A stretch of 64,000 bases of DNA from positions 620,001 through 684,000 of the forward strand of contig JADQCE010000002.1 of NCBI GenBank assembly GCA_016278265.1, given 5' to 3'. Both the position numbers and the translations under genes were made by a program. The notes below the pieces were generated by a model. The model saw only the letters and a list, made by a program, of their open reading frames with translations. It was not told where the DNA came from and ran no database searches. This DNA is from Halothiobacillus sp. (GTDB lineage: Bacteria > Pseudomonadota > Gammaproteobacteria > Halothiobacillales > Halothiobacillaceae). This document shows, piece by piece, positions 14,733-21,924 of the stretch (positions are counted from its first letter, which is position 1; every line of letters starts with the position of its first letter).

Positions 14733-14965
14733 GTGGTGCCGAGCGCGCGAGGCACTTTCTCTTGCTTGCCCAAGAGAAAGTACCCAAAGAGAAGGGCACC
14801 CCTCGCCTTGGCCCTGCGGGCTTCCCTCCCGTCCGGGGCGCCGCGGACGGGGAGGTTCGACGCGACGTCCTGTCGCGGCGAACCTCAGCGCCACGTCCTT
14901 GTGGCGCTGACCCTGCGGCACCCCGGCCGCTCGGCAACGCGAAGGGGATTTTCCAGCCCGATGGC
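14733..14965. repeat. Long direct repeat, left copy
   Basis: The segment starts GTGGTGCCGAGCGCGCGAGG and contains TTTCTCTTGCTTGCCCAAGA, then AAAGTACCCAAAGAGAAGGG and CTCGCCTTGGCCCTGCGGGC. The same blocks occur in the same order and orientation at 16481-16780. Each copy contains nested inverted repeats (TTTCTCTTG/CAAGAGAAA; CGTCCGCGG-type; GTGGCGCTGA-type). I know similar CCCAAAGAGAAGGGCACCC sequences as abundant intergenic repeats in Xanthomonadaceae and pseudomonads. It ends where the neighbouring nuclease gene stops; the rest of 14622-14732 is A+T-rich with no gene. Confidence 0.75.
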
Positions 14966-16480: not shown

Positions 16481-16780
16481 TGCGGTGCTCGGCGCGCGAG
16501 GCCCGTTTCTCTTGCTTGCCCAAGAGAAAGTGCCCAAAGAGAAGGGCACTCCTCGCCTTGGCCCTGCGGGCTTCCCTCCCGTCCGGGTTGCCGCGGACGG
16601 GTCGGTTCGGCGCGACGTCCTGTCGCGGCGAAGCTCAGCGCCACGGTCCAGCTTCGCTGACGCTTCGCGTTCATCGGGCTGCGACGTGCCACTGGCACGT
16701 CGTTCCGGATTCACCCATGTGCCCCGACCCTGTGGCACCCGGCCGCTCGGCAAGGCCAAGGGGGCTTCTCAGCCCGATGA
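16481..16780. repeat. Long direct repeat, right copy
   Basis: The copy matches 14733-14965 block for block (TTTCTCTTGCTTGCCCAAGA; CTCGCCTTGGCCCTGCGGGC; GACGTCCTGTCGCGGCGAA) with an extra segment of about 60 bases near 16675-16735 that carries its own palindrome GACGTGCCACTGGCACGTC. It lies in the gene-free stretch 16324-17038. That stretch also holds two short CAGAACCCTTTAACG-type motifs (16408-16430 and 16838-16864). Confidence 0.75.
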
Positions 16781-19299: not shown

Positions 19300-19561
19300 G
19301 GCGCCTCCGACGTTGCCGGGGGACGGGCCCGAGATGCTTGCCGGCTTTGCCTGCTCGTGCGGCCCGGTGTCCGCCGGCCACTCCCAAAGGCGAAGCGGAT
19401 CGGCCAGCCAGTTGATTCGTCGCCGATTGTTTTCACCCTCTCCTTGATCGCTTCCAACTCGGCACTTTTGCCGCGCATCCCTGTCAGAACCGGGAGTTCG
19501 TGACCTTGGCTATGCGTCTCGGTCGCGAGGGTTATTCCAACGACTGAATGAGGGATGGTCA

Positions 19562-19864
19562 ATGAGTGATCGCCAGTCTGACGAGGTCTATCGCCGCCGT
19601 CGTCGCCTGCTTGTCACGTTGGGCGCGGGCCTGGCGGGGGCGTATGTGGCACCGACGTTGGTCAACGTGGCGGGGGCGCAACCGGGCCCGCATCGGCATG
19701 GCAGCCGTGGCCGCTATTCCCGTCCGAGCTACAGCCGTCCCAGTGGCGGTCATCACCATCACTCTTACTCCGAGCGCCGGTACTATCGGGACGATCGGCG
19801 GCATCACCACCACCGTGACTCCGAGTTGCGACTGAACATCCTTCTTCATCCCAGCCGCTGGTGA
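19562..19864 (+). CDS. Small Tat-like exported His/Arg/Tyr-rich protein
   Basis: The 100-residue protein starts with RRRRRLLVTLGAGLAGAY, a twin-arginine-like signal, followed by a possible cleavage region VNVAGAQP. The mature part is of low complexity: GHHHHSYSERRYYRDDRRHH and similar runs of His, Arg, Tyr and Ser, ending LRLNILLHPSRW. A GAGGGATGG precedes the ATG. Its stop overlaps the GTG of the following kinase gene by four bases (GTGA), so both are made together. It is a candidate substrate or precursor peptide for that kinase/PqqD protein. I know no family for it. Confidence 0.8.
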   Translation: MSDRQSDEVYRRRRRLLVTLGAGLAGAYVAPTLVNVAGAQPGPHRHGSRGRYSRPSYSRPSGGHHHHSYSERRYYRDDRRHHHHRDSELRLNILLHPSRW

Positions 19865-21078
19865 CCGCCGGCGGGATAGGCACCGAGGTGCGGGACCTCG
19901 TCCTGCCGGGCATCGGGCCGGCGGTGCGGGTTTCGGGATGCCCGGCATTCTCGGTGGTTCTCGAGGCGGCCCTGGCGGGTTGGCCGATCAACGAGGTAGC
20001 GGCTGAAGGGCCGCCACCGACCATCCGGCTGGAGGGCCGGAATGGGGAATGCCGGCAGGTGTCGCCCGCCTTTCCCGGTGGTGTGTCTCACCGGTCACCG
20101 GTCTCGGCCGCGTGCGCCGTGGCCGCCGACTTGATCGAACGTTTTCTTGAACTGAACCCCCAGTGGATCGGCCTGCATTGCGCCTCGGTTGAGATCAACG
20201 GCCGGCTGGTCTTGTTTCCGGAAACCCACCGGGCGGGCAAGAGCACCCTGATGGCGGCGCTGGCCGGCGGCGGGCAGCGGGTGTTCGGTGACGACGTGCT
20301 GGCGCTGGGCGAGGCCGGGCAGGGCATGGCGTTGGGCGTGGCCCCGCGGCTGCGCTTGCCGCTGCCGCTACCCCCGGCACTGGACGTGGCGCTGCACCAA
20401 TACACCACCACGCATGCCGGCCCGGAAGACGATCGCTATCGCTACCTCGATCTGCCGGCCGGGCAGCTCGCGCACCACGGCGAGACCTTGCCACTCGGTG
20501 CGGTGGTCTTGCTGGAACGTGACGAGGGCCTGGACAAGGCGGAGCTCCTGCGGCTGGCCCCGGGCGAGGGTCTGACCCGGCTGCTGCGCCAGCATTTCGC
20601 CCACGATCTGCCCAGCGAGGCGCTGATGGCGCGCTTTATGCCCCTGATGCAGTCCCTGCCGTGCCGGCTGCTGCGCTACCCCGAACCGTTGTCGGCGACA
20701 CGCTGCTTGCTCGCGGCGATGCCGGGCGTGATCGACGGGGTGGATGCCGGCCCCAATGCACCAAGCACAGAATCGGTGGTCTCAACCGAACGTGCGCCGG
20801 TGGCCGCCGATGAACACTGGCAGGCCGTCATGGCGACCCGCGAGTACGAGTTGGGCGACGATCGCTTCCTGATCGATCCGCACAGCGGGGCCATCCATCG
20901 GCTCAACGCCACGGGTCAGTTGGTTTGGCGATTGTTGCAGGTGGAAGCGTTATCGGCCCGGGAGGTGACCGACCTGCTCGTCGAGCACTTCCCTGAGGTC
21001 GAGCCCGAGCGCATCGAGGCCGACGTTCGAGCGCTGCTGGCCAGGCTCGCCGCGGTCGAGTTGATCGCCCCCGCCTGA
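19861..21078 (+). CDS. HPr-kinase-related protein fused to a PqqD-like domain
   Basis: The 405-residue protein has an N-terminal half like HprK-related kinase A: a P-loop ETHRAGKSTL (121-130), a GGGQRVFGDDVLAL stretch whose aspartates fit the HprK catalytic acid, and LHCASVEINGRLVLF before it. Residues about 323-403 (REYELGDDRFLIDPHSGAIH, then TGQLVWRLL, then EVTDLLVEHFPEV) match PqqD, the peptide chaperone of ribosomal-peptide modification systems. In the HPr-rel-A system these two are usually separate genes; here they are fused. It overlaps the small His-rich gene. HPr itself and ptsI are not nearby, so carbon-catabolite control is unlikely. Confidence 0.85.
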   Translation: MTAGGIGTEVRDLVLPGIGPAVRVSGCPAFSVVLEAALAGWPINEVAAEGPPPTIRLEGRNGECRQVSPAFPGGVSHRSPVSAACAVAADLIERFLELNPQWIGLHCASVEINGRLVLFPETHRAGKSTLMAALAGGGQRVFGDDVLALGEAGQGMALGVAPRLRLPLPLPPALDVALHQYTTTHAGPEDDRYRYLDLPAGQLAHHGETLPLGAVVLLERDEGLDKAELLRLAPGEGLTRLLRQHFAHDLPSEALMARFMPLMQSLPCRLLRYPEPLSATRCLLAAMPGVIDGVDAGPNAPSTESVVSTERAPVAADEHWQAVMATREYELGDDRFLIDPHSGAIHRLNATGQLVWRLLQVEALSAREVTDLLVEHFPEVEPERIEADVRALLARLAAVELIAPA

Positions 21079-21225: not shown

Positions 21226-21754
21226 ATGAATGCCCCAATGATCATCCGTCCCGAGACACCGGCCGACACCCGGGCGATTGCCGAGGTCACGCAGGCCGCG
21301 TTCGCCGCGCTGGAGATCAGCGACCATACCGAGCAGTACATCGTCCAGGCCTTGCGTGCGGCTGGTGCGCTGACCGTCTCGCTGGTCGCCGAGCGCGACG
21401 GTCGTGTGGTTGGTCACATTGCCTTCTCGCCGGTAACGATCTCCGACGGGACGCGCGGCTGGTACGGGCTGGGTCCGGTCTCCGTGCTGCCCGGGCACCA
21501 GCGGCAGGGCATCGGCGCGCGATTGATACGGGAGGGGCTGGCAGCTACAGCGTCCGGGTGCCGCCGGCTGCTGCCTGGTCGGCCATCCGGACTACTACCC
21601 GCGCTTCGGCTTCGAGCACCCGAGCGATCCCGTCGTCGAGGGCGTCCCGCTCGAGGCGTTCTTCGTCCTGCGTTTCGATGGCCCCATCCCGAGCGGCACG
21701 GTCACCTTCCACGAGGTATTTGCGGCGACCGGGCCCGCGGGGCCGTCATCGTAA
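21226..21754 (+). pseudogene. GNAT acetyltransferase, broken by a 2-base deletion
   Basis: The first 105 codons (MNAPMIIRPETPADTRAIAE, then YGLGPVSVLPGHQRQGIGARL) parallel the intact gene at 34922-35467. Near 21544 the frame is lost; in the next frame the rest continues LQRPGAAGCCLVGHPDYYPR, then FGFEHPSDPV, ending at TAA 21752-21754. The total of 529 bases is two short of an even frame, so a 2-base deletion between GCA and CTA explains it. Without it the protein would be 176 residues. A sequencing error is possible; the neighbouring csbD is also frameshifted. Confidence 0.8.
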
Positions 21755-21924
21755 GTCGGCACGGGGGTGTCCCTGGGCGGGGTGGCAGCCGACGCCAGTT
21801 GCCGATGCTGGCACAAGACGGTGAGTGCCGAGCCGGGTGGCGCGGCAGTGCGTCAATGGCGGGGCCTGAGCAGGCCGCCAGGTGAGCGCTGCCGTAGGAA
21901 GGCAGCGGTCGGTGGGGTGGGGAG

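Follow-up and report, generated by a model that had tools for sequence, protein, structure and literature searches.

The YxxPxL motif in precursor leaders is bound by the B1/RRE proteins of lasso-peptide systems (PMC10368454, PMC13381572). In the Bradymonadales lasso system BsfA/BsfB1/BsfK, the RRE protein BsfB1 strongly raises the phosphorylation of a YxxPxL-leader peptide at Ser3 by BsfK, an HprK-like Ser/Thr kinase (PMC10368454). The paeninodin-type kinases PadeK and ThcoK are also HprK-like and act in a lasso context, where they phosphorylate Ser at the precursor C-terminus, the last residue being itself Ser. A family without a lasso cyclase, the linear polyphosphorylated peptides (LPP; LppA/LppB/LppK), was described from Bacillota in 2026. 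Its precursors, of 35–200 aa, have a YxxPx leader that an RRE recognizes, a conserved N-terminus and a highly variable C-terminus, and the HprK-like LppK places several phosphates on a single Ser of the linear LppA, with the RRE LppB encoded in the same cluster (PMC13381572). In HPr-rel-A (kinase TIGR04352, PqqD TIGR04353), an HprK-like kinase and a PqqD protein are encoded in separate genes and, as we found here, usually have a Tat-leader protein upstream. This upstream protein is about 200 aa long, contains Cys, and carries CTxSGxxSGNxS and TPGYW motifs. Our literature search, which took in a minority of subscription papers, found no paper on HPr-rel-A with PqqD or on HprK-related kinase. 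Here we describe a cassette that probably encodes a Tat-exported linear phosphoprotein system of only two genes, in which the RRE is fused to the kinase and the Tat signal doubles as the RRE leader.

The two genes of the cassette

The features of the cassette are collected in Table 1, with positions in the window, the whole stretch of 64,000 nucleotides that was analyzed. A sequence-only reading had described a 100-residue RR-leader protein overlapping a kinase–PqqD gene by GTGA, and both ORFs lie where it placed them. The small protein begins with MSDRQSDEVYRRRRRLLVTLGAGLAGAYVAPTLVNVAGA, ends in NILLHPSRW, and is laid out as a Tat-like leader followed by a body rich in His, Arg, Ser, and Tyr and an invariant C-terminus. 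The window is part of a 2.73-Mb genome that named relatives place in Guyparkeria, a salt-loving bacterium. Across the copies found in this genus, the leader, PSYSRPS, and NILLHPSRW vary little or not at all. PSYSRPS itself does not vary in these copies and is amplified to SYSRP repeats in a second gammaproteobacterial family (f171). The pN/pS ratio, calculated from seven Guyparkeria copies, is 0.29 for the whole small gene and 0.06 for its last ten residues. These values, and the recurrence of the same layout in each of the six Guyparkeria species with the kinase, mark the small ORF as a real gene. It belongs to no Pfam family; in NCBIfam it matches one model alone, a Tat-target family, and does so weakly (15 bits, E 0.019).

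The body of the Guyparkeria protein contains 11 His in 60 residues. This His-richness is peculiar to Guyparkeria, and since it is missing from the bodies of most relatives, we dropped it as a defining feature of the substrates; what the relatives have in common is the leader and Ser/Arg-rich repeats. Thus, of the earlier idea that the kinase is paired with a His-rich Tat-leader peptide, the Tat leader recurs in relatives and the His-rich body does not. The bodies differ widely, being His-rich, built of SYSRP repeats, or Gly/Ser/Arg-rich, and inspection by eye found no motif common to all of them.

In the second protein, AGKST at residues 125–129, FGDD at residues 142–145, and the PqqD-like C-terminus, all claimed from the sequence alone, were borne out. 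Residues 337–402 match the PqqD family PF05402 with an E value of 5.8e-14 and 52.6 bits, above the gathering score of 23.4. Residues 101–160 match HprK_rel_A TIGR04352 (E 1.2e-7) at 31 bits, below the cut-off of 200, and TIGR04353 PqqD scores 26 bits, below its cut-off of 35. The signature of the HprK-like superfamily is present in order, with His106, GKS at 126–128, and DD at 144–145, and lacks the first Gly of the P-loop, a position at which the fusion has Glu and most relatives have Ala, Asp, or Ser. All 17 Guyparkeria and f171 members retain His106, Lys127, Ser128, Asp144, and Asp145, as do the further relatives listed. The counterparts of these five residues are needed for BsfK activity, for which the glycine matching the first P-loop position is also important (PMC10368454). 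By sequence the fusion belongs to the HprK-like kinases, with predicted protein kinase activity; Glu121 counts against this prediction, as the matching Gly mattered in BsfK.

For the PqqD domain, the best PDB sequence match is TbiB1 (E 5e-4). A structure model built from three sequences, usable for the PqqD domain only, has most of this domain at a pLDDT of about 80–90, and its best fold match is to the TbiB1–leader complexes 5v1v/5v1u, with a TM of 0.81–0.84 on target. The kinase part of the model is unreliable, with a pLDDT below 50 for residues 99–311.

In the window, the neighbors of the cassette are DedA/VTT, DUF2459-like, and GNAT genes, and searches of defense and phage libraries gave no matches. 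The downstream GNAT gene (21226–21755) appears frameshifted near 21560, with a C-terminal GHPDYYPRFGF in another frame. The window also holds a 162-nt direct repeat, 90% identical, at 14756–14917 and 16506–16667, 1750 bases apart, which is covered by ORFs in several frames.

Table 1. Features of the cassette, with positions in the window
Feature	Position	Strand	Basis
Shine-Dalgarno-like GAGGGA before the small gene	19550..19555	+	sequence
Small gene for the putative substrate, 100 aa, ATG start	19562..19864	+	sequence, conservation
Tat-like leader core RRRRRLLVTLGAGLAGAYVAPTLVNVAGA, residues 11-39, AxA end	19592..19678	+	conservation; best background profile matches are ordinary Tat substrates
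YVAPTL, residues 28-33, YxxPxL motif, proposed PqqD/RRE docking site	19643..19660	+	Y28 and P31 invariant
SRPSYSRPS, residues 53-61, proposed phosphoacceptor repeat	19718..19744	+	conservation
C-terminus NILLHPSRW, residues 92-100, invariant, retained in orphan copy	19835..19861	+	conservation, pN/pS
GTGA overlap of small-gene stop and fusion start	19861..19864	+	sequence; translational coupling predicted
HprK-like kinase fused to C-terminal PqqD/RRE domain, 405 aa, GTG start	19861..21078	+	profile matches
His106, counterpart of conserved kinase His (BsfK H148)	20176..20178	+	alignment; PMC10368454
P-loop PETHRAGKST, residues 120-129, first loop Gly replaced by Glu121	20218..20247	+	alignment
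Asp144-Asp145, metal-binding pair	20290..20295	+	alignment
PqqD/RRE domain, residues 337-402	20869..21066	+	PF05402, PDB sequence match, model

Co-occurrence of the two genes

Among eleven Guyparkeria genomes, the small gene is present in all six that bear the fusion and in none of the five that do not. One of the latter, G009, is complete and lacks both genes; the other four are less than 90% complete, so the co-occurrence within Guyparkeria is weak evidence on its own. In each of the six Guyparkeria with the kinase, the small gene and the fusion directly adjoin or overlap each other. The fusion profile found full-length relatives in the f171 family, elsewhere in Pseudomonadota, and on plasmids of Paracoccus and Shinella. 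The pairing with a small leader gene also persists in these more distant relatives, the alphaproteobacterial plasmids included. In f171, the small gene accompanies the kinase in 11 of 11 genomes and occurs in 0 of 110 others; when the leader profile was run over all 121, the 11 genomes with the kinase, and no others, scored 65–86 bits, and the rest stayed at or below 34 bits. Each of the 11 f171 fusions has an RR-leader gene upstream whose product carries SRP-type repeats in its body, one body running as SYSRPSYSRPSYSRPSYSRPSYSRPSYSRPSRW through to its end, and the C-terminal residue is Trp, usually preceded by Arg.

In G087 and G403, the kinase and PqqD are separate genes. The split pair of G087 is preceded by a leader gene of the type described above, and no leader gene was found near the split pair of G403. 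The neighborhood survey that the sequence-only reading had called for, a search for an upstream small Tat-leader gene, thus gave 6/6 in Guyparkeria and 11/11 in f171, with the split homolog of G403 as the exception. The G087 genome (C2 and C3; L057, L060) also contains a canonical HprK_rel_A kinase besides its divergent split kinase/PqqD pair. The flanking genes vary from locus to locus among the relatives, and therefore the two genes are the unit.

Guyparkeria sp. SCN-R1 has a second small gene, at a distance of approximately 3.2 kb from the first copy and not adjoined by a kinase, and such an orphan copy is confined to this kinase-bearing genome. It retains the leader, PSYSRPS, and NILLHPSRW, indicating that the conservation of the small protein is not a by-product of the gene overlap. 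A copy of this kind is what one would expect of a substrate that the kinase reaches in trans.

A YxxPxL motif in the Tat-like leader

Across 14 leaders representing these systems, the start Met and the pattern RR..L..LG......Y..P.......A never vary. All 24 substrate leaders contain Y-x-x-P-x-(L/V/M/F), and none of the 46 controls does; these comprise 27 canonical HPr-rel-A leaders (one of them a spurious pattern hit) and 19 background Tat signals. Because the sequences are related, the p value of 3e-19 assumes more independence than there is. Given that the motif lies in the leader and that the PqqD domain is closest to TbiB1, we propose that the hydrophobic part of the Tat-like signal carries an RRE-docking motif to which the domain would bind.

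Among the weaker matches of the leader profile in f171, the strongest come from ordinary Tat substrates, DctP-type binding proteins for example, indicating that the leader has the Tat form. The RR pair, the hydrophobic stretch, and AxA are all present, and TatC is encoded in the genome; judged by these features, the small protein is most likely exported by Tat. Its proposed role as the substrate of the kinase–PqqD fusion, already put forward in the sequence-only reading, is strongly supported by the co-occurrence, the orphan second copy, and the YxxPxL docking motif. Phosphorylation on both Ser and Tyr had also been suggested: Ser is supported by analogy, and Tyr is not, since neither of the two closest characterized kinases phosphorylated a Tyr that replaced the target Ser (PMC10368454, PMC13381572).

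On the Shinella and Paracoccus plasmids, genes for S8 serine peptidases adjoin the fusion on its upstream side (L092:4046-5383, L091:4203-5468, L093:4227-5495), together with a sigma factor gene. These peptidases have the same YxxPxL Tat-like leader and a Ser-rich linker, and YxxPx[LVMF] was found in both of the S8 leaders tested. Possibly they are additional substrates, or else the protease that carries out maturation.

Relation to known systems and proposed mechanism

Like LPP, the cassette combines a YxxPx-leader precursor, an RRE, and an HprK-like kinase without a cyclase; precursors with a conserved N-terminus and a highly variable C-terminus are common to both. In LPP the RRE and the kinase are separate, whereas they are fused in Guyparkeria, and the fusion systems occur in Pseudomonadota and use a Tat-like signal as the leader. 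LPP clusters also add an archaeal-type signal peptidase, an NTP transferase, and an MsbA-like transporter; the cassette has no further linked enzymes, and neither these two enzymes nor a transporter was seen among the neighbors examined. With lasso systems the cassette shares a YxxPxL leader with a B1-like RRE, and the catalytic residues of the fusion are those of BsfK except for the first P-loop Gly. The Bsf system differs in having a lasso cyclase and a leader peptidase, with no Tat signal described (PMC10368454); a macrolactam cyclase and a leader peptidase are absent among the window neighbors and were not seen in the flanks of relatives examined. Unlike the precursors of the paeninodin-type kinases, the Guyparkeria protein ends in SRW.

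At canonical HprK_rel_A loci (L027-L056), a Tat-type leader protein was found upstream in 27 of 30 with a loose pattern, which also gave hits at the opposite end in 7 of 30, and many of these loci have clear CTxSGxxSGN...TPGYW proteins. Three of the canonical leader proteins were examined; none belongs to a Pfam family, and a single weak NCBIfam match was obtained among them. The canonical leader motif is different and lacks YxxP. The leader profile trained on the fusion systems missed the canonical leaders, and we do not claim homology between the two sets. In the kinase tree, the fusion clade and the canonical HprK_rel_A kinases fall on opposite sides of a 99/97 branch. Because of this separation and the failure of both NCBIfam cut-offs, we did not file the fusion under HPr-rel-A. 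The sequence-only reading was right that HPr-rel-A encodes the kinase and PqqD separately but missed the upstream Tat-type leader of the canonical loci. By analogy, the cassette would work as LPP and lasso phosphorylation do, and by their defining features it is a member of neither, nor of HPr-rel-A.

Given that PqqD-type domains bind leaders and that the leader of the small protein is Tat-like, the fusion might act mainly as a signal-peptide chaperone, its PqqD domain masking the Tat signal in a TorD-like manner and its kinase-like part serving as an ATP-driven or degenerate switch while the cargo stays unmodified. The loss of the first P-loop glycine in most members fits such a role, but the full retention of the catalytic His, Lys, Ser, and both Asp does not, the cargo keeps its Ser-rich repeats and, in Guyparkeria, the invariant PSRW end, and the related RRE–kinase pairs are active kinases (PMC10368454, PMC13381572); we regard this explanation as unlikely. 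It is also quite improbable that phosphorylation is an activating step only, after which an unlinked enzyme eliminates or glycosylates the phosphoserines and leaves a mature product that is no phosphoprotein. A nucleotidyltransferase gene does accompany the kinase in related lasso and LPP clusters, but no transferase or lyase was identified among the window neighbors of the cassette or in the flanks examined, and no such partner moves along with the two genes. The abundant His of the Guyparkeria body would suit a periplasmic metal-binding protein, with the overlapping kinase acting on something else. We give this very little credence: most relatives are not His-rich, the small protein is linked to the fusion by its strict co-occurrence and by the YxxPxL motif, and the orphan copy occurs only in a genome with the kinase.

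In the phosphoprotein system that we favor, the small protein and the fusion would be translated together through the GTGA overlap. The PqqD/RRE domain would bind YxxPxL inside the Tat signal in the cytoplasm, as suggested by TbiB1, FusB1, BsfB1, and LppB, and the attached kinase would phosphorylate Ser residues of the body, the likeliest sites, judged by conservation, being in SRPSYSRPS and/or the C-terminal PSRW. Once modified, the protein would be released for export through Tat and cleavage at AxA, in keeping with the form of the leader and the presence of TatC. Fusing the kinase to PqqD would make RRE-guided kinase action obligatory, and an RRE sitting on the Tat signal would delay export until modification is complete. 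A single target site is not evident because the substrate bodies differ so much, and the conservation of the low-complexity tails, rich in Ser, Arg, and Gly, could have a different cause.

A two-gene phosphopeptide system of this kind does not appear to have been described: in a literature search that left most subscription papers outside its range, no paper joining PqqD, HPr kinase, and twin-arginine was found, and the papers pairing PqqD with twin-arginine concern other matters according to their titles and abstracts. The cassette offers a plausible substrate, docking motif, and function for the orphan HprK-like/PqqD genes of Pseudomonadota, and its minimal two-gene form suits reconstitution. 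Lasso peptides and the 2026 LPP family provide the known examples of leader-guided phosphorylation; the cassette would extend the principle to proteins exported by Tat, and it provides a testable case of an export signal and a RiPP leader being the same segment. We see an even chance that Tat signals can double as RiPP leaders in a modify-then-export checkpoint, and that the HprK/PqqD systems of Pseudomonadota, canonical HPr-rel-A included, form a large unrecognized set of systems for Tat-exported phosphoproteins.
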